From Dyella sp. S184 (GTDB taxonomy: Bacteria > Pseudomonadota > Gammaproteobacteria > Xanthomonadales > Rhodanobacteraceae), in the NCBI RefSeq assembly GCF_009766065.1, contig NZ_LMUE01000002.1:1346169-1410168 (forward strand): 64,000 nt of DNA, in the 5' to 3' direction. Shown here in pieces: positions 9,777-51,242 of the stretch. Position numbers and translations under genes: made by a program. The first letter of the stretch is position 1. Every line of letters starts with the position of its first letter. Below the pieces are notes generated by a model. The model ran no database searches, had not been told where the DNA came from, and was given only the letters and a program-made list of their open reading frames with translations.

Positions 9777-11765
9777 ATGAAGTCCACCGGATATTTCGCG
9801 TTTGCGACCTGCTGCGCCCTGGCGCTGCCACTGTCTGCACTCGCCGCCACGACCGCGCCAGCGTTCCAGTTGAGTGACCTGCAGAAGATCGTGAGCCTGG
9901 GCGAGCCGCAGGTTTCGCCGGACGGCAAGCGCGTCGCCCTCATCGTTTCGACGCCGGACTGGAAGGCCGACAAGAGCAAGCAGGAAATCGATCTGGTGGA
10001 CACTTCCAGCGGTGCACGGCGCATGCTGACTTGGAAGCGCGAGGGCATCTCGTCACCGCGCTGGTCACCGGACGGCGCGCAGTTGGCCTTCATCGCCGAC
10101 GACGCGGACACCAAGCAGGGACAGCTGTATGTGATGCCGATGGACGGTGGCGATGCGCAGCGGATCACCGAGATCAAACGCGGCGTGGACTCGTTCAGCT
10201 GGAGCCCGGACGGCAAGCAGATCGCCTTCGTCAGCGAAGACGAACCGGCCAATGCGAAGGCCATCAAGGAACACGACGACGCGTTCCAGGTCACCGACAA
10301 CCACTTTCTCACCCGCGAAGCACTCACTCCGTGGCATCTGTGGGTGGTCCCCAGTGCAGGCGGCACGGCAAAACGGCTCACCCAGGGCAGCTACAGCCTG
10401 CAGACCGATCAACAGGACGATACGCCGGAGCCGGCATGGAGTCGCGATGGTCGCAGCATCGCGTTCGTCCGCTTTCCCGGCCCGTACTGGGGACCGTCGT
10501 TCCATTCGGTAATTGCCAGCGTGGATGCCAGCGGCGGCGAACCGCGCACGCTGGTAACGGACGAAGGGTCGGCCGATGTCATCTATGCGCCGGACAGCGA
10601 CAACTTCGCCTTCGTGCGCCCGCGCAACGGTGACCAGAACAATGGCAATGCGGTCTACGTGACGACGGGCGGCAATACACGCGACGTCACCCAGGCGCTG
10701 GCGCGCAACCTCAACGGCTACGCCTGGCTGCCACACGGCAAGTCGCTGCTGCTGGCCGCCGAGGACGGCACCCACTCGGTGCTGTGGGAGCAGCCGCTGT
10801 CGGGAGCAGCGAAGAAGCTTGACCTCGGTGACGTGGAAGCCGGTACGGACGTGAGTGTCTCGAAAACCGGTACGCTCGCCTTCATCGGCAGCACCACGAC
10901 GCATCCAGGCGAGCTGTACGTGATGGATTCGGTGAGCGCCAAACCGCGGCGGCTCACCAACCTCAATACCTATGTCGACAGCCTCTCGCTGGGCCGCACC
11001 GAATCGGTCGAGTGGCAGGGGCCGGACGGTTTCCACGAGGATGGTGCGCTGACGTTTCCGGTGGGCTACCAGCGCGGGCAGTCCTACCCGCTGGTGCTGG
11101 TCATCCACGGCGGCCCGGAAGCGGCCTCCACGGTGAAATTCTCACCGCTGCCGCAGCTGCTGGCCGCGCAGGGCTTCGTGGTGTTCCAGCCGAACTACCG
11201 CGGCAGCACCAACCTCGGCGATGCCTACCAGCACGCGATCTTCCGCGACACCGGTGTGGGCCCTGGCAATGACGTGATGGCCGGCGTGGCCGCGGTGCAG
11301 AAGCTCGGCATTGTCGACGCGCAGCGCATCGGCGTCACCGGCTGGTCATACGGCGGCTACATGACGACCTGGTTGACTGGCCATTACCCGATCTGGAAGG
11401 CTGCTGTCTCCGGCGCGGCGCTGACCGACTGGGTGATGGACTACACCGTGTCGTACTACCAGACAGGCGATACCTATTTCTTCGGTGGCTCGCCGTGGAT
11501 GGCGAAGTACAAGGATATCTGGCGCGAACAGTCGCCGATCGCCTATGCGCACAACGTCACCGCGCCGACCCTGATCATGGGCGACGTGGGCGACCCCAAC
11601 GTGCCGCTGTTGAACAGCTACGAGTGGTTCCACGCGCTGCGCGATAACGGGGTGCAAGTGGAGTTCTACGCCTACCCGGTCGACACGCATTTCCCCAAGG
11701 ACATCGTGCGTACCACCGACGTCTACCGCCGCTGGGTGGGCTGGATGACGCAGCACCTGAAATGA
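9777..11765 (+). CDS. Secreted S9 family (prolyl oligopeptidase-type) serine peptidase
   Basis: A 662-residue enzyme. The N-terminus MKSTGYFAFATCCALALPLSA is a signal peptide ending near LAA. Residues about 30-390 form a TolB/WD40-like beta-propeller with repeats such as SPRWSPDGAQLAFIADD and SWSPDGKQIAFVS. The C-terminal alpha/beta-hydrolase domain carries the catalytic triad: S524 in GWSYGGY, D606 in GDPNVP and H638 in DTHFPKD. The start is the ATG at 9777, preceded at 6 bases by AGGAGA; earlier in-frame codons have no such site. The family cleaves short peptides (dipeptidyl- or acylaminoacyl-peptidase types). A periplasmic location and supply of peptides to the POT transporter are inferences. 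Confidence 0.93.
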   Translation: MKSTGYFAFATCCALALPLSALAATTAPAFQLSDLQKIVSLGEPQVSPDGKRVALIVSTPDWKADKSKQEIDLVDTSSGARRMLTWKREGISSPRWSPDGAQLAFIADDADTKQGQLYVMPMDGGDAQRITEIKRGVDSFSWSPDGKQIAFVSEDEPANAKAIKEHDDAFQVTDNHFLTREALTPWHLWVVPSAGGTAKRLTQGSYSLQTDQQDDTPEPAWSRDGRSIAFVRFPGPYWGPSFHSVIASVDASGGEPRTLVTDEGSADVIYAPDSDNFAFVRPRNGDQNNGNAVYVTTGGNTRDVTQALARNLNGYAWLPHGKSLLLAAEDGTHSVLWEQPLSGAAKKLDLGDVEAGTDVSVSKTGTLAFIGSTTTHPGELYVMDSVSAKPRRLTNLNTYVDSLSLGRTESVEWQGPDGFHEDGALTFPVGYQRGQSYPLVLVIHGGPEAASTVKFSPLPQLLAAQGFVVFQPNYRGSTNLGDAYQHAIFRDTGVGPGNDVMAGVAAVQKLGIVDAQRIGVTGWSYGGYMTTWLTGHYPIWKAAVSGAALTDWVMDYTVSYYQTGDTYFFGGSPWMAKYKDIWREQSPIAYAHNVTAPTLIMGDVGDPNVPLLNSYEWFHALRDNGVQVEFYAYPVDTHFPKDIVRTTDVYRRWVGWMTQHLK

Positions 11766-41049: not shown

Positions 41050-41415
41050 CTAATCGATGGATGAGGTCGCGTGCATGCAGTCCATGACCTGTTCGGAGAA
41101 CCAGGCGTCCTGTCCAGCGTTCGCATGATACTTTGCGGTAGTGGTTGGCCCAGTGGCGACGATATCTACCAGTGCGACCATTGGGCCGCCCGCACCATCC
41201 CTGAGCTGGATACTGGTTCCCCCGAACATCGGTACGACGGCCATCTGAGCCGATCTTTTCGACCAGCTTCCAGAAACACAGGCGACAACCTCATCCACGC
41301 TTCTGTCTCCTACGTAGTAACCGGTCGCGGGTGAATCGCGCAGGCTTTGTACCTCGGTGCATGCGGACAGGAGCCCAACAACAGCAATGAAGGCCAGATA
41401 TCGTTTCATGATCAT
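41050..41415 (-). CDS. Small lipoprotein of unknown function
   Basis: A 121-residue protein starting MIMKRYLAFIAVVGLLSAC, with a clear lipobox LLSAC-T and the lipidated Cys at position 19 (or 17 from the second Met). The mature part (SLRDSPATGYYVGDRSVDEV, then VACVSGSWSK) has two further Cys and is mostly beta in character. The ending EQVMDCMHATSSID is distinctive. I do not recognise a named family. It is on the same strand, 88 bases after the possible 79-residue gene at the end of the TonB-receptor operon, so it may belong to that group. Confidence 0.7.
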   Translation of the reverse strand: MIMKRYLAFIAVVGLLSACTEVQSLRDSPATGYYVGDRSVDEVVACVSGSWSKRSAQMAVVPMFGGTSIQLRDGAGGPMVALVDIVATGPTTTAKYHANAGQDAWFSEQVMDCMHATSSID

Positions 41416-41503
41416 TTGTATCCGTGGGTTTTCATGTTGTGCCAGACCATCATCAGTGTATCTGGCTTCCGCTTTCGACTGAAACCGCATAGCCGGGTAG
41501 CTA

Positions 41504-41743
41504 TCACCGGCTCGCACATCTCCACCTGAACATACCAAACGAAACCTGCGATGCCATTCTCGCTACTCCGGAGTGGAACCGGTCTGGCGACTTGGTTGCG
41601 AGAAGAAAGTCATTGTCACCCTGTTGGCAACGACCGCCGGTTGTATCGAGCACTTCAAATGACTTTTCAGTCCAGGCAAGCATTCTTAAACCGTTTGTTC
41701 CGCAACGTCCATCCTTGAAATACAACCGCGCGGCAGGAAGCAT
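41504..41743 (-). CDS. Possible 79-residue protein coupled to the TonB receptor
   Basis: Its ATG (41743-41741) overlaps the TonB-receptor stop in TGATG, a typical re-initiation arrangement. The sequence MLPAARLYFKDGRCGTNGLR, then MLAWTEKSFEVLDTTGGRCQ looks protein-like, but I recognise no family, signal peptide or membrane segment. It contains two Cys. It fills most of what would otherwise be a 327-base gap. It could equally be a chance frame. Confidence 0.35.
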   Translation of the reverse strand: MLPAARLYFKDGRCGTNGLRMLAWTEKSFEVLDTTGGRCQQGDNDFLLATKSPDRFHSGVARMASQVSFGMFRWRCASR

Positions 41744-43938
41744 CAGAGCTTTAGATCAAGGCTGAGACGTACCTCCCGTGGCTCGCCGGGATGCACGGTA
41801 ATGCCATCGGGCACTGGCGCGCTGGCAAGCGAAGCACGGTAGTCCTGCTCATATTCGATGTCGTAATACCTGCGGTCAAACAGGTTGAGTACGTCCAGCG
41901 TCAGCGATACCGAAGACGTGAGCGTGCGCTGCAGACGCAGGTTTGTGACGATCGCTGACGAACCGACCAGCGTGTTGTCCTGCGATAGTGGATATTTGCC
42001 GATGTAGCGCAGCTTGATATCGCCCGACCAGTTGTCGACGTCGTGTACGGTCAAGCCCAACGATGCGACCTTCGGCACTGCGTTGGGTATGTGATCACCC
42101 AACTCGCCATTGTCGTTGTTGTTGGCGAAGCGCGCATGCGTCCATGCCAGATCGGCGTCGAACAGCAACCAGTCGTTGATCACCGCGTGATTGTTCCATT
42201 CCACGCCGTAACGCTTGCTGGCACCGTTGGGCGTGGTGCTGCCGACTGCCGAATCCGCGTCGTAAACCAGCTCGGATTCACTGTTCAAACGCCAGAGCGA
42301 CAGCGAGCTTTGCAGGCCGGGAATGATCTCGGTGCGTACACCGATCTCCTGACCGAAGGCACCGACCAGCGGCGGTACGGGCGATGCCGAGCCACCAGTG
42401 GTCGGGTCGATCCGGTAGATCACACCGCGCGCGTCGTTGCTATGGAAGCCGTCACCAGCATCGAGGAAAAACTCGGTCTTGGCCCACGGGCCAAAGACCA
42501 GCGCGAGCTTTGGCGATGTGCGGCTCCCGGACGCGTCGCCGGTGTTCTGCGGAATATTAAACTCGGTCAGGCCCAGGTGAATATCGTCCTGGCGTATACC
42601 GATCTGACTGCGAAACCAGTCGCTCCACACGGTGGTGTTCTCGAGATACACGGCTGCTTCGGTTTCGTTGACGCGATTGTCGTTGACAGTCTGGAACGGG
42701 ATGCGGTCCTCGGTGTTGAACAGACCGACATCGATATGATCGTGACGCAGCTGAAAGCCGGCCTCGGTGGTGGAATCATGGCCGAACAGGCTCCCGGTCC
42801 AGCCGCGGGCGATCTTGGTGCCAACCAGGTTGCGCGACTCTGCCTGCTCGAACTGGTCGCCAGTGTCCGGTCGCAGCTCGAAATAGGTGAAGTCGGAAAA
42901 CAGCTGCAGTCGGTAGTGCTCGGCATACGCCGATACCTTGGTGTAACCGTTGGCGTCCTGGGTATGCCATTCGCCGGAGAGGATGTCGCGGCCGCTATAG
43001 CCACCATCGCTGGTATCCAACGCGCAGAACTGGCACAGCGCCCCGGACTGGATGAGCGACAGTGGCACCTGGTCGGTGGAATCCCAATGGGCGTCATAGG
43101 CGTTGAGGTCGATGGACCAGCCACGCGCGGCATCGCCATCGCTCAGGCGCGTCAGTCCGTTGAACTTGTGCATGTCCTCGGGCAACCGCCACGGTCCGTT
43201 TTCGCTCAGCACCTCCACCGCACCCAGCAAGGTGGGGCCGGCGGCGCTGGTGTTGCCACTGTCGGTCGTGGCCCAAGCCGGCAGCGACACTGGCGTGGAG
43301 CCGGCCAGCAGCATGCGACGGTAATCGAAGCTGCCGAGGGTAAGGTCGAGGATGGGACTGGGTAGGACGTTGCGGTAAAGAATGTCGGCCGAACCGGCAG
43401 CGGAGAAATCGCCGTTCTCGGCAAAGTAGGTGCCCTTGCGGTAATCGATCTGCTGCACCAGCTCGGGTATCAGGAAATTGAGGTCGGAATAGCCCTGGCC
43501 GTGTGCATTGGTCGGCATGTTGACCGGCACGCCGTCCACGCTGGTGGCGAAGTCGGTGCCGTGATCGAGGTTGTAGCCACGCAGAAAATACTGGTTGGCC
43601 TTGCCATCGCCGGAATGCTGGGTCACCACCATGCCTGGAATCGCCTCCAGCACCTCGCCCGGGCGCAGCAGCGGAATATCCTGCAGCAGCGACCCGAGAA
43701 TGACGCCCTGCGACGCGGCGCTGCTGGTGCCAATACCGTTGTTGTAGTGGCCAACCACGTCGACCGGCGTCAGCGTGGTCGCTGATGATGCGCTGGCTGG
43801 TGCGGTATCGCTGATTGGCTGGCTCGCCGGCGTGTCGGCAGGCTGCGCGTTAGCGATCGAAGCAGCGCATAACACCAAGCCGACGAACCACCTCGACAAA
43901 CTCTTCGCAAGAACCCGACAAGAGTGCAACGTATCCAT
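41743..43938 (-). CDS. TonB-dependent outer-membrane receptor
   Basis: A 731-residue receptor. The signal peptide ends near SIANA-QP. The plug domain (about 65-185) includes LRPGEVLEAIPGMVVTQHSG and GKANQYFLRGYNLDHGTDFA. A 22-strand barrel follows, and the protein ends EVRLSLDLKL, an unusual C-terminal residue compared with the common Phe. GGAG lies 9 bases before the ATG at 43938. It imports a scarce ligand with TonB energy; the substrate is unknown, but the receptor sequence is of the GYNLDHGTDFA subgroup that accompanies HupE-type proteins. It is the fourth gene of the DUF4331 operon. Confidence 0.92.
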   Translation of the reverse strand: MDTLHSCRVLAKSLSRWFVGLVLCAASIANAQPADTPASQPISDTAPASASSATTLTPVDVVGHYNNGIGTSSAASQGVILGSLLQDIPLLRPGEVLEAIPGMVVTQHSGDGKANQYFLRGYNLDHGTDFATSVDGVPVNMPTNAHGQGYSDLNFLIPELVQQIDYRKGTYFAENGDFSAAGSADILYRNVLPSPILDLTLGSFDYRRMLLAGSTPVSLPAWATTDSGNTSAAGPTLLGAVEVLSENGPWRLPEDMHKFNGLTRLSDGDAARGWSIDLNAYDAHWDSTDQVPLSLIQSGALCQFCALDTSDGGYSGRDILSGEWHTQDANGYTKVSAYAEHYRLQLFSDFTYFELRPDTGDQFEQAESRNLVGTKIARGWTGSLFGHDSTTEAGFQLRHDHIDVGLFNTEDRIPFQTVNDNRVNETEAAVYLENTTVWSDWFRSQIGIRQDDIHLGLTEFNIPQNTGDASGSRTSPKLALVFGPWAKTEFFLDAGDGFHSNDARGVIYRIDPTTGGSASPVPPLVGAFGQEIGVRTEIIPGLQSSLSLWRLNSESELVYDADSAVGSTTPNGASKRYGVEWNNHAVINDWLLFDADLAWTHARFANNNDNGELGDHIPNAVPKVASLGLTVHDVDNWSGDIKLRYIGKYPLSQDNTLVGSSAIVTNLRLQRTLTSSVSLTLDVLNLFDRRYYDIEYEQDYRASLASAPVPDGITVHPGEPREVRLSLDLKL

Positions 43939-44090
43939 GGACTGACTCCATACGTGCACCGCGGCAAACCAAGATCGATAGTGATATTGGCCATATCCCG
44001 AAAGTCGCACGAACAATTTGCAGCGTTCAAGTCAAAGTAAGTACGGGTTTAATACGGACAACATGTCAGCGCTGGCTCCGTAGCGCTGGA

Positions 44091-45350
44091 TCAATTTGGA
44101 ATGATCGCGCTGAAACCTGGAATCAGGATATTGAAGGCTCGCTGCACCAACCAGCCAGTAGCGAGAGCGATGATCAACAGCGACCCCCAGCGCAAGAGCA
44201 CCACTTGATAGAACCATGTCTTGCGCAGCATGTACGCCAGCGGCAGGAAGGCCAGCACGATGGCTTCCTGGCCGATCTCCACGCCAACGCTGAAACCACC
44301 GAGGGACGCTGCCATGGCGCCGGCCGGCAACTGCAGCCCGGCCAGGGCGCTGGCAAAACCCAGGCCGTGGATGAAACCGAAGGCAAAGGCAATCAACCAG
44401 ACGCGCTTGTGTACAACCGGATAGATGTTGTTCAGAGCCGCGACCATCACCGACAGGGCGATACCGGATTCCACCAATCGATCGGGCAAGTGCACGATGC
44501 CAAGAACGGCCAGCGACAGCGTCACCGAATGCGATAGGCTGAACGCGGATACGACCTTGATGACATCCAGGCATGCCGGCCAGAATCTCGGCGAAGCCTC
44601 CCAGCGATATTGCGGGGGTTGTGCCGTAAGCGCCATCAACGCGCCGCTGGTCTCGGCCAGGGCAGCACTTGCGCGCCATCCATCACCTCGCGGCTGCAAG
44701 CGGCGCCTGATCAGGACCGCCGGCAACAACAACGACAGCAGAAACAATATGTGATCGATACCGGTCCAGATGTGCCAGATACCGTCCGTGACAAAGCTCT
44801 TGAATTCCCCCCAGCGATCCGGCTCGCGCAAGTTCAGGCTGGCCACGGGGTCGCTCGGCCCGAGCACGGCGCCGGCGATCTTGTCGCCCGCGTGAATGGT
44901 GACAATGCCGCGGTGATAAGGATCGAGGTCGTACATCAGGCGATAGACGACCGTGAGCTTGCTCGGGATGTTCTTGTCGCAGACCGCATCGAACAGGATG
45001 ACTGCATAGGCACCATCGGTGTGCTCGTCGATCTTCTGTCCAGTCGGCTGCATCGCGCAGGTCAGGCCGTCGCCCTTGACCTCTAGTCGCGACAGCGCAT
45101 AGTCCTCAATGACCTTGCGCTGCGCCTTGACCTCGCCCCAGGTGATCGCTCCATCGTGCCTACTGTCGAGACCGATCGCATAATCGAGATCACGCAGGGC
45201 GATATCCCACTGGCCATGCATTACGTGATCGTTGGCAGTGTCAGTGCGCAAGGTGAGGTAGGCATCGCTTTCCTTGTGTGCATAGGCACTCAGCGGGCTG
45301 AAGCCAATGGCGATGACGAACAAGGCATACAGCCATCTTTGCAGGTTCAT
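44091..45350 (-). CDS. HupE/UreJ-family membrane protein with periplasmic N-terminal domain
   Basis: A 419-residue protein. After a signal peptide (ends SAYA-HKES) comes a periplasmic domain of about 170 residues. A C-terminal membrane domain with about seven helices follows, bearing the HupE_2 motifs: GIWHIWTGIDHILFLLSLL, FSLSHSVTLSLAVLG, IVHLPDRLVESGIA and GFIHGLGFASALA. The conserved His residues suggest metal handling; HupE itself is linked to nickel, but the specificity of this subgroup is not established. Its ATG overlaps the stop of the TPR gene (ATGA), so they are coupled. It lies between the TPR protein and the TonB receptor. Confidence 0.9.
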   Translation of the reverse strand: MNLQRWLYALFVIAIGFSPLSAYAHKESDAYLTLRTDTANDHVMHGQWDIALRDLDYAIGLDSRHDGAITWGEVKAQRKVIEDYALSRLEVKGDGLTCAMQPTGQKIDEHTDGAYAVILFDAVCDKNIPSKLTVVYRLMYDLDPYHRGIVTIHAGDKIAGAVLGPSDPVASLNLREPDRWGEFKSFVTDGIWHIWTGIDHILFLLSLLLPAVLIRRRLQPRGDGWRASAALAETSGALMALTAQPPQYRWEASPRFWPACLDVIKVVSAFSLSHSVTLSLAVLGIVHLPDRLVESGIALSVMVAALNNIYPVVHKRVWLIAFAFGFIHGLGFASALAGLQLPAGAMAASLGGFSVGVEIGQEAIVLAFLPLAYMLRKTWFYQVVLLRWGSLLIIALATGWLVQRAFNILIPGFSAIIPN

Positions 45351-46651
45351 CGATCGCTCCCGCGCGAGAAAGAGCGGCTGGCTGAGGCGGACACGTTCAA
45401 CGCTGATCGATCCGGCTGAGCCGCCCTCAGCTGCGCCACGAGTGGATCGATGGTCACATCCTTGAGATGCGTACTATCGATGAAATCGAGCGCAGGCTTT
45501 GCTGCCGCGGGATCGTTCGTGGCCAGCGCAGCCTCGAGATAGACGCGCACGTCCTTGGGTGCGCGCTGTACCCGCCAATTTTGCATGGCCAAATCCAACG
45601 CGGCCTTTGGATCATGCTCGACATGCAACAGATAGCTCGCCTCCTCGCGCATGAAGACGTGATCCCCGCGTTGGTCCATGGACCGAAACCGGGCATCCAT
45701 TTCCGCCATGTCGGCCTTGGCTTTTGGCAAATCGAGCGCTTTCTCCGCTGTCACGAGAACCAGAAACGATGTGTCGGATTGGGTATCACCGCCGACCAGG
45801 TCAATCGCCTCTTTGGCGCGGACATGATCAATCAGAAATTCGCCGTAGTCGGCCAGCAAAAAGTTGTCACCTGGCGTCAGTTGCAGGGCTTTCTTGAAAT
45901 GAGCATCGGCCTGATCGGCGAGGCCCATGCGTGCCGCGTTATCGGCCATCAAACCCTCAATCCACGCCGGGATGGCGGGGGGGGCCTTGGGGCCTGGGTT
46001 CTCCACATACGAGAACAATGCATCAGCCTGCGCGCCCTGCCCGCTGAGGCTGCGCAATGAGGCGCTACAGATCATGCCCATGAAATTGCCGGCATTGTTG
46101 GTTAGGTCGACACATAGGCGGTTTGCCAGAGCGTGGTCGCCCTGAACCATCGCAACCGTGGCCAACGTCAGCAGTGCCTGAACGTTGCCCGGGTCACGTT
46201 TGAGAATCTGCGTAAGTTCGTCGCGGGATGCCTGGAAAAAATGCCGGCTTTGCTGGATCGTCGCGTGTATGAGCATGACCGGAACAGGCGGTGTCGGTAA
46301 TGCCATGAATGGCTGAATCACTGCCATTGCGCGGCCCAAGTAACGGGCATCGCCAGTCGAACGGCCGTAGTCCACATAGGCTGTGGCAAGCAACACGGCC
46401 TTTGTCGCATCTTGAGGGTGAGCACTGAAATCGCTGCGCAGTTGGTCGAATTGACGCACACGAGGATCAGTCCGCGGAGGTACGAGCTGCAGGACAACGC
46501 TGTCATTGGCGGGAATGTAGGGAGCGTCCCGAGCCGTTTGAGCAGCGAGAGGAATTGGCAACATGAACAGCAATGGGAAAAAAAGACGAAGTACGACGCA
46601 GCATGAACTGCGCCGTACTTCGTCGACCGTGCCTTCGTGTGTGTCATTCAT
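45347..46651 (-). CDS. Exported tetratricopeptide-repeat protein
   Basis: A 434-residue protein with a hydrophobic export signal after a 16-residue lead (LRLFFPLLFMLPIPLAAQTA). Several TPR-like helical repeats follow: TQILKRDPGNVQALLTLATVAMV, ADQADAHFKKALQLTPGDNF and EASYLLHVEHDPKAALDLAM. TPRs bind partner proteins, so it may scaffold the envelope proteins of this operon. It starts 57 bases after the DUF4331 stop, with a weak ribosome-binding site, and overlaps the HupE start by four bases. Confidence 0.85.
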   Translation of the reverse strand: MNDTHEGTVDEVRRSSCCVVLRLFFPLLFMLPIPLAAQTARDAPYIPANDSVVLQLVPPRTDPRVRQFDQLRSDFSAHPQDATKAVLLATAYVDYGRSTGDARYLGRAMAVIQPFMALPTPPVPVMLIHATIQQSRHFFQASRDELTQILKRDPGNVQALLTLATVAMVQGDHALANRLCVDLTNNAGNFMGMICSASLRSLSGQGAQADALFSYVENPGPKAPPAIPAWIEGLMADNAARMGLADQADAHFKKALQLTPGDNFLLADYGEFLIDHVRAKEAIDLVGGDTQSDTSFLVLVTAEKALDLPKAKADMAEMDARFRSMDQRGDHVFMREEASYLLHVEHDPKAALDLAMQNWRVQRAPKDVRVYLEAALATNDPAAAKPALDFIDSTHLKDVTIDPLVAQLRAAQPDRSALNVSASASRSFSRGSDR

Positions 46652-46707
46652 GGAGTCATACTCGAAGGCGGCTTACTGCAATAAATCAGCTGGAAACTTG
46701 CAAGATA

Positions 46708-48249
46708 TCAATGATGGACGCTGGCATTGACTGCACTGGGTGCCGTCGCATTGACCGAACCCGGAACCGGTGTGTTGAGGTACGGGAACACAGCCAGATA
46801 AGTGTCCGCTGCGTTCTCGTCGCCCACCACGTTTTCAGTCGCAGCCGTCGGCCCCGGTGAATTCGCGCCGTCGGTATAAGCCGCACCATTGTTCGGATCG
46901 GAAGTCTCGTTGCCACAGGTGCCGTACGTCGTACTGCAAATGGCACCTTCCACCACACGAAGCGCGATGGTGACGACATCGTCATAAGGACGACGCCCGT
47001 TCGGGAAGCCCGCCAGATCGCCCCCGAGCACACCGAGGTAATTTTGCGATGCGGGCGCCGTGGGTGCGATGGTGGTGTTCAGTCGCAACTCTTCGGAAGG
47101 GACAACGTGGGCCGGCTGATTGAGCCCGGGCAGGCCGGTAAGGAAAGCACTTACCAGATCGTTGCGTGGCGTCTGTGGCACCACCGCCGCTGTGCCGAAC
47201 AATGCATTCAATAGAACCGGCAGCGTCGGATTGGTTACATAGCTGGCAAACTGCGCATCAGCGCTTGGCACGCTGCCATTGAAATTGTCCTTGTCCTTGA
47301 GACCAATGACCAGTTCATTGACCAGCGGCGAACCCAATCGGGATACCTGGGTGTAACGGTCACTGTAGAAGTTGTTCGGTGCGTAATAATCCGATTGCGT
47401 GCCGGTCTGGCTCAAGACCCAGTTGTCCTGCACGAATGAAGTTGTCCAGCCACCGATCACAGGATCGCCGGCGGTATCGCGCAAGCAGGCGACAGGAACT
47501 TCGAGCGCCAGCGTGTCGACATTCTTGTCGGTAAGCGCATTGGGAGTCGAGCCTACGCCCCCGAGCGGGTTGAGATTCACCAGATCGAAAATCGCGCCCA
47601 GATCGGCGACGAAACCATCCTTGCGCTGACCGACAAACATGCGACCAGGCGAAGCGCATCCGGGGATGATGATGCTATAGACGTAGTTGCCGGCGTACGT
47701 GGCATAGTCGGCGATTGATTTGTTGCCGATGTTGTCCGCGGGTTTGGTAAACGTGCCCGACCCACCTGTGGCATTGGTAATCGGTTGTCCAACGCCACCG
47801 TCCCGCACTAACTCCACCTTGTAGGTCTGGGTGACGTTTAGATTGCTCTGATTGCTGGCGGTAATCGGTCCGATGTTGATCAATGGCACCGTGGTTGATG
47901 TGCCGCCACCGGTGGGAACAGCGAGCTTGTTGTACGTGTTGGTGAATGTGAACCGGAAAGCGAGATTCGCTGTCGCACCACCGGTGTTGTCGATGCGAAT
48001 ATCGTATACAGCCCGGTCGCTCAACGTGTGGAAGTTCGGACCGCTGTAAGCGTCCTGCAGCGGATTGTAATTGGCCAGCAAAGTTACGTATCCGGTGCGT
48101 CCTGTTTCATAACTCATGAACATGTAGAAGTCGCTGGCATCGAGCTGCGGCATGGTGCTGATGAACGGGGCCTCGCGATGGCTTGACGCCATCGCGACTA
48201 CGGGCAGCAAGCTCAAGAGCAGAACTATGGGTTTCAATTTCAATTTCAT
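46708..48249 (-). CDS. DUF4331 domain exported protein
   Basis: A 513-residue protein with a signal peptide (MKLKLKPIVLLLSLLPVVAMA) and the DUF4331 hallmark SSHREAPFISTMPQLDASDFYMF at its mature N-terminus. Later motifs DRAVYDIRIDN, RMFVGQRKDGFVADLGAIFDL and NALTDKNVDTLALEVPV belong to the same domain. No catalytic function is established for the family. GAGGTAA precedes the ATG. As the first gene of a minus-strand set (DUF4331, TPR, HupE, TonB receptor), it is probably periplasmic or surface-exposed. Expression is likely from the 730-base region upstream. Confidence 0.9.
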   Translation of the reverse strand: MKLKLKPIVLLLSLLPVVAMASSHREAPFISTMPQLDASDFYMFMSYETGRTGYVTLLANYNPLQDAYSGPNFHTLSDRAVYDIRIDNTGGATANLAFRFTFTNTYNKLAVPTGGGTSTTVPLINIGPITASNQSNLNVTQTYKVELVRDGGVGQPITNATGGSGTFTKPADNIGNKSIADYATYAGNYVYSIIIPGCASPGRMFVGQRKDGFVADLGAIFDLVNLNPLGGVGSTPNALTDKNVDTLALEVPVACLRDTAGDPVIGGWTTSFVQDNWVLSQTGTQSDYYAPNNFYSDRYTQVSRLGSPLVNELVIGLKDKDNFNGSVPSADAQFASYVTNPTLPVLLNALFGTAAVVPQTPRNDLVSAFLTGLPGLNQPAHVVPSEELRLNTTIAPTAPASQNYLGVLGGDLAGFPNGRRPYDDVVTIALRVVEGAICSTTYGTCGNETSDPNNGAAYTDGANSPGPTAATENVVGDENAADTYLAVFPYLNTPVPGSVNATAPSAVNASVHH

Positions 48250-48983: not shown

Positions 48984-50270
48984 TCATCGTGGATTTTGGG
49001 ATGCCGGTTCGCGCGCACACGCCCTTGCGCGTCCCAGCAACAATTCACGCTCGCGCATGTTTTGAGTAAGTGAGGCGGCGCGCTCGAATTCAGGGCGCGC
49101 TTCGTCGAACCGACCGAGCCTGAACAACAAGTCGCCCCGCACGGTTGGCAGCAGGTGGTAATTCGCAAGTGTGGGTTCAGCGGTCAGCGCATCGACGAGT
49201 TCGAGGCCCGCGACAGGACCGAACGCCATAGACACCGCCACGGCACGATTGAGCTCCACCACTGGAGAGGGGGCCAGCTGCGCCAACATTGCATAGAGTT
49301 CTGTGATCCGCGTCCAGTCAGTGTCCTCTGCGGTGATTGCGCGCGCGTGGCAGGCAGCTATAGCGGCCTGCAGAGCATAAGGGCCGAGCGCACCACCCAG
49401 CTTTTCTGCATGATCGAGCGCTGCCAGTCCGCGGCGGATCAGCAGCTGGTCCCACTGCGCACGGTTCTGCTCAAGCAGCAGGATCGGCTCGCCTGCTGCG
49501 TTCACACGCGAATGTGCGCGAGAGGCCTGGACCTCCATCAGCGCAACCAGACCATGCGCCTCCGCTTCGCGCGGCACCAGTCCGACCAGTACTCGGCCAA
49601 GACGCAATGCCTCTTCGCACAGCGTTGGCCGCATCCAGTCGTCACCTGCCGTCGCGGAATAGCCTTCGTTGAAGACGAGATAGATGACACCGAGCACCGA
49701 AGACAGCCGCGCTGGCAGCTCCTCGGCGCGCGGCACCTCGAATGGCACCTGCGCATTGGCCAGGCTGCGCTTGGCGCGGACGATACGCTGCGCGATAGTC
49801 GGTTCGGGCACCAGGAATGCCCGGGCGATTTCCTCGGTAGTCAGGCCACCGAGCAGGCGCAAAGTCAACGCCACGCGCGCCTCGACGGACAACACCGGAT
49901 GGCAGGCGATGAACATCAGCCGCAACAGGTCGTCGCCGATGGGATCATCGAGAGCCGCTTCAACCTTGGACACGGCATCCTCCTGCGCAGCTTCGAGCTC
50001 GTGCATCAGTTCCACATGCTTGCGCTCAAGCAGCTTGCCGCGGCGCAGGCGGTCGATCGCGCGGCGTTTCGCCGTGGTCATCAGCCACGCGCCGGGATTG
50101 TCCGGTACGCCCGACGTCGGCCACTGTTCCAGGGCGACGACCAGCGCATCCTGCGCCAGCTCTTCGGCCAAGCCGACGTCGCGCAGCATGCGGGTCAGGC
50201 CGGCGATGAGCCGGGGAGACTCGATCCGCCATACGGCATCGATGGTGCGATGGGTGTCGGTCGCTGGCAT
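48984..50270 (-). CDS. ECF42-type RNA polymerase sigma factor with C-terminal extension
   Basis: A 428-residue sigma factor. Region 2 appears as LTRMLRDVGLAEELAQDALVVALEQWP (about 24-50) and GAWLMTTAKRRAIDRLRR. Region 4 is around 130-180 (LTLRLLGGLTTEEIARAFLVPEPTIAQRIVRAKRSL). The remaining ~230 residues are the long helical, TPR-like extension typical of ECF42, with motifs VIYLVFNEGYSAT and YALQAAIAACHA. No anti-sigma gene is visible; in this group the extension itself controls activity. It follows YCII and VOC genes on the same strand, the usual ECF42 neighbourhood. A matching promoter candidate lies upstream of the YCII gene. Confidence 0.93.
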   Translation of the reverse strand: MPATDTHRTIDAVWRIESPRLIAGLTRMLRDVGLAEELAQDALVVALEQWPTSGVPDNPGAWLMTTAKRRAIDRLRRGKLLERKHVELMHELEAAQEDAVSKVEAALDDPIGDDLLRLMFIACHPVLSVEARVALTLRLLGGLTTEEIARAFLVPEPTIAQRIVRAKRSLANAQVPFEVPRAEELPARLSSVLGVIYLVFNEGYSATAGDDWMRPTLCEEALRLGRVLVGLVPREAEAHGLVALMEVQASRAHSRVNAAGEPILLLEQNRAQWDQLLIRRGLAALDHAEKLGGALGPYALQAAIAACHARAITAEDTDWTRITELYAMLAQLAPSPVVELNRAVAVSMAFGPVAGLELVDALTAEPTLANYHLLPTVRGDLLFRLGRFDEARPEFERAASLTQNMRERELLLGRARACAREPASQNPR

Positions 50271-50359
50271 AGGCGGCCGATCACATCACCTGCCACTCCT
50301 TGATGCAAGCCCGTGTGTGGCTCCGTCTGCTTCTCGGCCGTTGCTGGCAACGCGCGAGT

Positions 50360-50773
50360 TCATTGCTCCTTTTCGCAATTGATCATCCACGGTACGCCGA
50401 ATTGATCGACCAACATGCCGAAGCGCTCGGCCCAGAAGGTCTTCTCGTAGGGCATCTGCACCGTGCCGTTCTCTTTCAGCGCGTTGAAAATGCGTTCCCC
50501 TTCTGCCTTGTCGTGAATCTGGATCGACACCGAGCAACCCTTGATGCCGTCGTACGGACGATCGGGCGGGCAGTCGGAAGCCAGCAGCACCTGGTCGCCA
50601 ATTTCCAGCCGTACGTGGATGAGCCAGTCGCGACTTTCCGCCGGCATGTTCTCGCAGCCGGGCGCTTCGCCGAAACGCATCATCATGGTGATCTTGCCGC
50701 GCAGGCATTGCTCGTAGAACTTGAATGCCGCTTCGGCGTTGCCGTTGAAAATGAGGTAGTTGGTCAGTTGCAT
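50360..50773 (-). CDS. VOC family protein (PhnB-like)
   Basis: A 137-residue vicinal-oxygen-chelate fold protein. MQLTNYLIFNGNAEAAFKFY is the PhnB-type N-terminus, followed by MMRFGEAPGC and the C-terminal FWAERFGMLVDQFGVPWMIN. Function is not established; many are wrongly labelled 3-demethylubiquinone methyltransferase. The ATG at 50773 has GGAG upstream. It lies between the YCII gene and the ECF42 sigma gene, and is likely part of the same regulon. Confidence 0.88.
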   Translation of the reverse strand: MQLTNYLIFNGNAEAAFKFYEQCLRGKITMMMRFGEAPGCENMPAESRDWLIHVRLEIGDQVLLASDCPPDRPYDGIKGCSVSIQIHDKAEGERIFNALKENGTVQMPYEKTFWAERFGMLVDQFGVPWMINCEKEQ

Positions 50774-50816
50774 GAGGTACTCCACCAATCAATCTTGGAC
50801 TGGGTCCGATACTGGA

Positions 50817-51242
50817 CTATGACTTCACCGCCGCCTGCACGCGCAACTGCGCCTCCTGCTCCCGCAGCTCCGGCGTGAGCTCGGCACCGAAGTCATCCGC
50901 CTCGAACACCTGGCGGATCTCGATTTCCGATTCGCTTTCGAACGGGTTGGGACAGCGCTTGACCCATTCGACCGCCTCCTCCATCGACTTCACCTGCCAC
51001 AGCCAGAAGCCGGCAACCAGCTCCTTGGTCTCGGCAAACGGCCCGTCGATCACGCTACGCTGGCTGCCGGAGAATTTCACTCTTGTACCCTTCGAACTGG
51101 GCTGCAGTCCCTCAGCCGCCAGCATGATGCCGGCCTTGACCAGCTCCTCGTTGAACCGGCCCATCTCGGTCAGCAGCTTCTCGCTGGGCATCACACCGGC
51201 CTCTGAAGCCTGAGTGGCCTTGACCATCACGATGCATCGCAT
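50817..51242 (-). CDS. YCII/DGPF-domain protein
   Basis: A 141-residue YCII-family protein carrying the DGPF signature as VIDGPFAETKELVAGFWLWQ. It opens MRCIVMVKATQASEAGVMPS and continues with the LLTEMGRFNEELVKAGIMLA helix. DGPF proteins are the conserved genetic partners and targets of ECF42 sigma factors. Their biochemical role is unknown. AAGGAG lies 8 bases before the ATG. It is the first gene of the YCII-VOC-sigma operon. Confidence 0.93.
   Translation of the reverse strand: MRCIVMVKATQASEAGVMPSEKLLTEMGRFNEELVKAGIMLAAEGLQPSSKGTRVKFSGSQRSVIDGPFAETKELVAGFWLWQVKSMEEAVEWVKRCPNPFESESEIEIRQVFEADDFGAELTPELREQEAQLRVQAAVKS

Follow-up and report, generated by a model that had tools for sequence, protein, structure and literature searches.

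A widespread DUF4331-TPR-HupE operon as a possible nickel acquisition route across the bacterial cell envelope

The window analysed here, a stretch of 64,000 nucleotides from Dyella sp. S184, carries four genes in a row on its minus strand. These encode a DUF4331 protein (48249-46708, 513 amino acids; PF14224 at 448.7 bits, cut-off 27), a TPR protein (46651-45347, 434 amino acids), a HupE_UreJ_2 permease (45350-44091; PF13795 at 148 bits, cut-off 24.5) and a TonB receptor (43938-41743; Plug and barrel models). An earlier note on this DNA had placed these families on one strand, and profile models reproduce them; the ATGA overlap that it gave for the TPR and HupE genes is present as well, and the spacing between the DUF4331 and TPR genes is indeed small, although it is 56 bases and not 57. 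The HupE and receptor genes are 152 bases apart, counted from the ATG used here. A single TPR model (TPR_19, 27.3 bits against a cut-off of 25) barely recognizes the TPR protein, the remaining TPR models falling below their cut-offs, and its N-terminus reads as that of an exported protein. A terminator-like hairpin of 18 pairs with a T7 tail lies in the annotated start of the TPR open reading frame (46585..46624, minus strand); it folds at -35.9 kcal/mol (z -5.7), and stems of at least 12 pairs are found at the DUF4331-TPR junction in 23 of 66 relatives versus 3, 4 and 3 in control stretches. We propose that this hairpin makes DUF4331 exceed the TPR and HupE proteins. In relatives a small lipoprotein gene sits in this same gap. 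A promoter scan gave one site where 3.7 were expected, and none on the operon strand. Two further minus-strand genes, a 79-residue open reading frame (41743-41504) and a lipoprotein gene (41409-41050), had been counted with the operon in the earlier note; we reject them as members because neither has a tblastn match at E 1e-2 beyond the window's own genome among the loci compared, even though two of these, from Rhodanobacter, have a receptor with about 93% identity.

The DUF4331-TPR-HupE operon is real and widespread. In 80 named loci, mostly proteobacterial and two of them cyanobacterial, the three genes are colinear on a single strand in 66, and in 61 of 71 the TPR stop and the HupE start can overlap as ATGA. 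Among 185 genomes of the class, HupE_2 matches occur in 16 of the 17 DUF4331-positive genomes versus 38 of the 168 others (Fisher p 6e-9; three of these 54 HupE_2-positive genomes score under the family cut-off), and HupE_2 adjoins DUF4331 in 12 of the 17. The ordered co-occurrence across proteobacteria that the earlier note had suggested looking for is thus borne out, and it supports that note's broader idea of a cell-envelope metal system built of a HupE permease, a TonB receptor and exported partners. A TPR relative accompanies DUF4331 in 71 of the 80 loci, but only 1 of the 20 HupE loci taken from genomes without DUF4331 has one. DUF4331 itself is present in proteobacteria, cyanobacteria, planctomycetes, verrucomicrobia and actinobacteria. 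Within a genus the operon is accessory: 5 of 31 Rhodanobacter genomes have DUF4331. A sigma-factor gene upstream in the window (48984-50270; Sigma70_r2, r4 and DUF6596) was considered as an operon link and rejected, its close relatives (E <1e-160) being present in 26 of those 31 genomes versus the five with DUF4331, and lying about 190 kb from DUF4331 or on separate contigs in two of them (G017, G004).

The TonB receptor is not a fixed member of the operon, as had first been supposed, but an optional partner, since a relative is present in only 14 of the 80 loci (on the opposite strand in L065 and L078) and 66 are without one in the stretch examined. The window receptor and 12 other linked receptors form a single clade (support 98/98), in a tree that is partly circular because the linked receptors were picked by similarity; it carries more weight that, of the 25 other receptors in the window's genome, none scores above 32 bits against it. 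Profile models gave no signalling-domain match in this receptor, and a PDB search with it matched only BtuB plugs (E 3e-6).

Both the DUF4331 and HupE proteins have a conserved histidine shortly past the signal peptide. The mature DUF4331 protein would start S-S-H-R-E-A-P; HREAP is invariant in 17 untrimmed relatives, and in all 80 loci the signal peptide is followed by [SAG][SDN]HRE[AS]P (a pattern that permits S for the A). In 77 positioned sequences residue -1 is A (75) or G (2), and residue -3 is A, V, T, S or G in all. These residues suit a cut after A-x-A, which would put the His at mature position 3, an ATCUN-type arrangement in which S-S-H is a possible N-terminal Cu/Ni site; a cut after A-S-S would make the His itself N-terminal. 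In the window HupE, A-Y-A precedes the His by our reading of the sequence, and in 71 of 71 HupE loci the His stands right behind the final residue of the signal peptide, which the pattern allows to be Ala or Pro. Because each sequence in our alignments A2 and A3 was cut to begin with its His or S-S-H, those residues are necessarily invariant there, and the unbiased support comes from the 17 untrimmed DUF4331 relatives and the signal-peptide pattern counts in all loci. HupE residues D38, E49, H169, D175, H176, H250 and H304 are invariant in 47 sequences aligned from the N-terminal His. The protein appears to be a permease with an anglerase-like periplasmic domain and an EF-hand-like loop. The earlier note knew of no described pathway for this gene set; that holds for DUF4331, since neither that name nor PF14224 is mentioned in the open-access literature searched, but not for the HupE architecture, which was described in 2025 as the "anglerase" metal permease (PMC12537917).

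We propose that DUF4331 is an abundant periplasmic metal-binding protein and that the TPR protein is an adaptor. An AlphaFold2 model of DUF4331 from 72 sequences (pLDDT 86.3, pTM 0.89) supersedes an earlier one from 17 sequences (pLDDT 51); it has no match among PDB folds at E<=0.001 (best E 0.013), TM values are <=0.24 among the best 50 of 722, and a PDB sequence search found no solved relative. Such isolation, together with 5 of the 80 loci that have >9 kb downstream and DUF4331 with neither TPR nor HupE in the stretch examined, could suit an envelope enzyme or structural protein with no metal role that is merely co-transcribed with TPR-HupE; the strong HupE linkage and the invariant His near the signal peptide make this very unlikely in our judgement.

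Of 16 plasmid relatives of the receptor, nine have nickel genes (nikR, hoxN or NiFe-hydrogenase) as neighbours: nikR in six, and hoxN and/or hydrogenase genes in three more, two of which are near-identical Bradyrhizobium plasmids. The other seven carry no nickel marker, and one of them adjoins cobalamin genes. Six further genomes of the class have the receptor, and nikR adjoins it in two of one family, with ABC metal-transporter parts nearby; a third has a ZnuA-like protein there. In three of the six (G064, G077 and G212) the DUF4331 operon lies apart from the receptor, with a HupE paralogue some 3 kb away in G064. Among the few proteins tested at L239, L240 and L241, no nickel gene was identified. 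Among the DUF4331 loci, L075 has two DUF4331 genes, a receptor, NikR, a His-rich protein, a lone Ang domain, a TPR protein, a NiCoT permease (bearing the four signatures given in PMC7689651) and a second NicO protein. NikR directly follows HupE in L141, and in L067 the receptor is followed by a protein of the DUF4198 family, which is reported to bind nickel (PMC12537917). Urease is found in 10 of the 17 DUF4331 genomes versus 37 of the 168 others (p 0.002, genome size uncontrolled; three weak genomes, G025, G064 and G130, with E 2e-5 or worse, excluded). Nickel is therefore favoured by the receptor relatives, L075 and L141, which narrows the metal or cofactor of the earlier note to nickel or perhaps cobalt, and we propose that the window receptor is a nickel (or cobalt) receptor.

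Other observations fit nickel less well, among them the accessory status of the operon in its genus. Searches of the genome to which the window belongs gave no match at E<=0.001 for urease alpha, the NiFe-hydrogenase large subunit or NikR, and the 64-kb window has no NikR, NiCoT or ABC-3 relative; a search for Ni-SOD gave nothing, nor did it in its 14 control genomes. NikR is found in 2 of the 80 loci and, by genome, in 4 of 17 DUF4331-positive versus 19 of 168 others (p 0.14); hydrogenase is found in 4 of 17 versus 34 of 168 (p 0.48), counting the 38 genomes with E <1e-40 out of 90 with any match, the weaker ones being, we assume, complex-I relatives. Neither difference is significant (genome size uncontrolled). 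Matches to a NikR-operator pattern (the E. coli consensus) are not enriched in the window (7 versus 11.7 expected).

The lack of the tested nickel enzymes in the window genome counts for copper acquisition or handling, in which the anglerase-type domain and an N-terminal X-X-His would bind Cu(II) and feed the cytoplasm or envelope enzymes. So do the affinities of the anglerase RbAng-1a, tighter for Cu2+ (Kd 74 nM) than for Ni2+ (220 nM) (PMC12537917), and the ATCUN motif, an amino-terminal copper and nickel site according to PMC7701195. We nevertheless consider copper unlikely: the receptor relatives adjoin nickel genes, the receptor's NCBIfam matches include no TonB copper-receptor model, and copper families are absent among the 25 most frequent of the 132 families to which 138 neighbour proteins from 41 loci belong. 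Uptake of cobalt, to serve B12-dependent enzymes for instance, would agree with the one receptor relative near cobalamin biosynthesis genes and with the Synechocystis HupE, reported as a cobalt transporter (PMC4284471, PMC7689651); it is a similarly doubtful reading, as nickel genes make up most of the markers found and no cobalamin riboswitch scores above the gathering score in the window or in seven relatives, two cyanobacteria among them.

A quite unlikely alternative is that the system sequesters nickel or cobalt or confers tolerance, and is not nutritional. In Sphingobium the gene most induced by excess nickel has a HupE/UreJ domain (PMC5557971). The accessory distribution in Rhodanobacter and the window genome's want of tested nickel enzymes point the same way, and in relatives induction might come from a linked sigma/anti-sigma pair, an ECF sigma relative being present in 38 and an RskA-type anti-sigma relative in 35 of the 80 loci. 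Against this, TonB receptors are importers, and RND and P-type efflux families are absent among the 25 commonest neighbour families. No RskA relative was detected in the window, which confines the ECF/RskA link to relatives, and the upstream sigma gene, with its DUF6596, bears no more than a weak similarity to the linked ECF (E 6e-5).

Because these genes recur as a group across distantly related bacteria, at times accompanied by an outer-membrane gate with relatives that are often nickel-linked, they probably form an undescribed nickel (or cobalt) import system; we put at about one half the probability that the operon encodes a nickel (Ni2+, possibly Co2+) acquisition route across the cell envelope. 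The receptor would bring a nickel complex across the outer membrane; DUF4331, probably in excess owing to the hairpin after its gene, would capture periplasmic metal, perhaps by its N-terminal S-S-His; the TPR protein would serve as adaptor; and HupE would take the metal via its N-terminal His and anglerase-like domain into the cytoplasm. Computation supplies the gene order, the conserved His in two proteins, the hairpin enrichment and the nickel genes near receptor relatives; the metal and its direction, the mature N-termini and what DUF4331 and TPR do are inferred. More tentatively, and with less confidence than in the route itself, DUF4331 proteins could be a large unrecognized class of abundant proteins of the periplasm that bind Ni(II) (or Co/Cu) and, from an X-X-His at the mature N-terminus, pass it on to the His that begins a dedicated HupE permease of the anglerase type. 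Together with the TPR protein, the relatives' small lipoprotein and, where present, a TonB nickel receptor, they would make up a new nickel importer that spans the envelope. Through HupE and the nickel-linked receptors DUF4331 gains a concrete, quickly testable role, and the operon suggests a way in which, in Gram-negative bacteria, a one-component permease that lacks a classical binding protein may be supplied with nickel from the outer membrane.

Among known systems, the Ang-1/HupE-UreJ_2 anglerases (PMC12537917; PDB 9GCE) share with the window HupE the signal peptide, N-terminal His, periplasmic domain and C-terminal PF13795 domain. Ang-1 has an Ig-like beta-sandwich fold (9GCE); PDB sequence searches with HupE matched no anglerase chain (9GCE itself was perhaps not among the chains searched). 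The window protein differs in its EF-hand-like loop and conserved Cys pair, and in being encoded with DUF4331 and TPR, terms missing from the main text of PMC12537917. Like the secreted DUF4198/DUF6702 proteins (PMC12537917), DUF4331 is exported with a possible metal-binding residue at its mature N-terminus, but its His would be at position 3 (or 1, with the later cut) and it is without a match to solved sequences or folds. NiCoT (HoxN/NixA) permeases are a separate family from HupE with no member in the window, whereas L075 has one alongside its DUF4331, TPR and lone Ang-domain genes. Finally, the window receptor is about 38-46% identical to TonB receptors associated with nickel by nikR, hoxN or hydrogenase genes on the plasmids opened (pHG1 and pHCG3, for example), but its partner is DUF4331-TPR-HupE, not NikR or HoxN.

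In the window the minus strand carries, in order, genes for DUF4331 (PF14224; 48249-46708), a TPR protein (46651-45347), a HupE/UreJ_2 permease (HupE_2; 45350-44091) and a TonB-dependent receptor (43938-41743), and 56 bases separate the first two. The DUF4331-TPR-HupE portion is a real, deeply conserved gene set. The best 80 of at least 531 DUF4331 relatives found in a scan of named genomes were taken as the locus set, which spans gammaproteobacteria, betaproteobacteria and two cyanobacteria (L091 and L136). The three genes are colinear on one strand in 66 of these 80 loci, and this bears out across proteobacteria the gene order described in the earlier note. Five others have the TPR-HupE pair on the strand opposite DUF4331 (among them L075, whose HupE is without the membrane part), and nine have neither TPR nor HupE in the fetched stretch (downstream sequence <4 kb in four, >9 kb in five). 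The previously reported TPR/HupE overlap is present in the window as ATGA, and an ATG overlapping the TPR stop in this manner is available in 61 of 71 relatives. Among 185 gammaproteobacterial genomes, DUF4331 is present in 17 and HupE_2 in 54; HupE_2 accompanies DUF4331 in 16 of those 17, against 38 of the 168 other genomes (p 6e-9), and the two adjoin in 12 of the 17. DUF4331 was also found in 17 of 299 genomes of a phylum sample, and the operon is accessory in the genus (5 of 31 Rhodanobacter genomes); judged by the closest named relatives, the window's own genome resembles a Rhodanobacter. The TPR protein goes with the DUF4331-linked type of HupE; 1 of 20 HupE loci taken from DUF4331-negative genomes has a TPR relative.

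If cut after A-x-A, the DUF4331 protein would have S-S-H-R-E-A-P as its mature start. All 17 untrimmed relatives have HREAP unchanged, and [SAG][SDN]HRE[AS]P is matched in all 80 loci. The residue before the three that end in this His is A or G, and that two residues further upstream is A, V, T, S or G, in 77 of 77 positioned sequences. A cut after A-S-S instead would place the His first, and either predicted N-terminus could bind Cu or Ni. A model of the mature protein (pLDDT 86.3, pTM 0.89; residues 1-3 unsure) has no match among PDB folds at E<=0.001. Many TPR proteins (L098, L136 and the window, for example) have a short conserved stretch like P-Y-x-P-x-x-D-x-x-V-L at the mature start, after a putative signal peptide.

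A perfect 18-pair hairpin followed by a T run (46624-46585, minus strand) lies after DUF4331 and inside the start of the annotated TPR frame. Stems of at least 12 pairs are present at this junction in 23 of the 66 colinear relatives (3, 4 and 3 in three equal-length control stretches), stems of at least 14 pairs in 15 (0, 1 and 1 in controls), and strict terminator-like sites in 11 (0.55 expected from shuffles; two of the control stretches gave 0 and 1). A binding protein is usually in excess over its permease, and the hairpin could raise the level of DUF4331 above that of TPR and HupE. When the gap is at least 120 bases, 35 of 44 relatives encode within it a protein of about 70-100 residues that fits a loose lipobox pattern, a count made without a shuffle control; many of these carry D/E-T-E-P-like repeats (L077, L098, L103 and L139, for example). 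The window gap is too short for such a gene. In L088, L102 and L112, loci with no TPR or HupE in the fetched stretch, lipoprotein-like ORFs of similar size come after DUF4331.

The receptor is a partner rather than the fixed operon member it was first taken to be, because its relatives, which flank 14 of the 80 DUF4331 loci (13 by BLAST, plus L120; the L072, L099 and L141 matches are short pieces), lie downstream, divergent or convergent. In L120 (13096-16233) a single reading frame of 1046 residues covers both HupE and receptor, through either a fusion or a sequence error. The DUF4331-linked receptors form one clade (support 98/98, on rows preselected by similarity), and the best of the other 25 receptors in the window genome scores 32 bits against this one. 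The 79-residue ORF and 119-residue lipoprotein frame 3' of the receptor, proposed earlier as operon parts, are dropped: they have no match outside the window's own genome among the loci compared, even in two Rhodanobacter loci where the receptor is ~93% identical.

Among 138 neighbour proteins from 41 loci, the recurrent families are RskA-type anti-sigma (15), ECF sigma (11) and TonB receptor (5-6); every other family among 25 of 132 listed has at most three. With one query each, ECF sigma and RskA relatives were found in 38 and 35 of the 80 loci. The 64-kb window has no RskA relative, and its upstream sigma gene, which carries DUF6596, is of a different type from the linked ECF factors. That gene adjoins those for a 3-dmu-9_3-mt/glyoxalase-type protein and a YCII protein (48984-51242). 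It has close relatives in 26 of the 31 genomes of the genus, and two of these (G017 and G004) show no linkage between it and the operon. The flank of the Variovorax locus L141 contains two opposed xanthine riboswitch (NMT1) matches (618-681 and 794-860 of that locus).

Our best reading is that the gene set serves to acquire nickel or cobalt, with an anglerase-type HupE (a metal permease architecture, below) at its core and DUF4331 probably as the binding protein; we infer both metal and mechanism. Nickel markers lie by the receptor in 9 of 16 plasmid receptor loci: six have nikR (L245, L247, L251, L255, L256 and L260), and three lack it but have hoxN and/or hydrogenase genes (L244, on pHG1, and the near-identical L258 and L261). 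L246 has cobalamin genes near the receptor, and the remaining six have no marker gene. Six other class genomes also have the receptor. Two of them from one family, G060 and G207, have it beside nikR and metal-ABC parts; the neighbours are TonB, ExbB, ExbD, an ABC-3 permease, an ATPase and an NCBIfam NikR equivalog at locus L237, and ZnuA at L238. A ZnuA-like protein is near it in G175. G064, G077 and G212 also have DUF4331, but the receptor is apart from the DUF4331 operon, with no nickel gene identified among the few neighbour proteins examined; in G064 a HupE paralogue is ~3 kb away.

NikR is present in two of the 80 DUF4331 loci. L075 (131-10375), from a gammaproteobacterial MAG, is a compact nickel locus with DUF4331, TonB receptor, NikR, a 119-residue His-rich protein, a stand-alone anglerase-like domain, TPR, a NiCoT permease (PF03824, 300 bits) and another NicO protein, with a further DUF4331 gene beyond them at about 10723-11721. 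The NiCoT shows all four signatures given in PMC7689651. In L141 NikR follows HupE, and the receptor piece is ~237 residues. A DUF4198 protein lies 3' of the receptor in L067. In counts uncorrected for genome size, urease occurs in 10 of 17 DUF4331 genomes vs 37 of 168 others (p 0.002), and DUF4331 has no significant association by genome with NiFe-hydrogenase (p 0.48; weak matches left out of both) or NikR (p 0.14). Within the metal or cofactor system proposed before, the loci with nikR, hoxN or hydrogenase genes point to nickel, but the window's own genome has no match to urease alpha, NiFe-hydrogenase or NikR, which counts against nickel. A cobalamin riboswitch turned up neither in the window nor in seven relatives.

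In all 71 HupE loci a His directly follows the last residue of the putative signal peptide. An alignment of 47 sequences, each started at that His, has D38 and E49 invariant in a periplasmic EF-hand-like loop (D-x-N-x-D-G-x-I-x-x-x-E, mature residues 38-49), along with C74 and C100 and, in the membrane part, H169-x5-D175-H176, H250, E270, H304, E334 and Q337. Some weak PDB matches, to calcium-binding proteins (E 0.76 or worse), lie on the loop. Several HupE_UreJ_2 paralogues without the anglerase-like domain (L148-L177) have A-H-G-M-S after the putative signal peptide, so the N-terminal His may be family-wide.

No paper on DUF4331 or PF14224 was found in the open-access literature searched, and the gene set is apparently undescribed, in keeping with the earlier note; its receptor part is not new, since PMC4284471, citing others, already notices nickel-regulated outer-membrane receptors with ExbB-ExbD-TonB clusters. 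HupE/UreJ proteins are described as nickel or cobalt permeases in PMC4284471, PMC7689651 and PMC5557971. The name anglerase occurs in one paper of the literature searched. The HupE architecture here agrees with that of the anglerases in PMC12537917: an N-terminal His, a periplasmic domain and a HupE/UreJ-2 membrane part.
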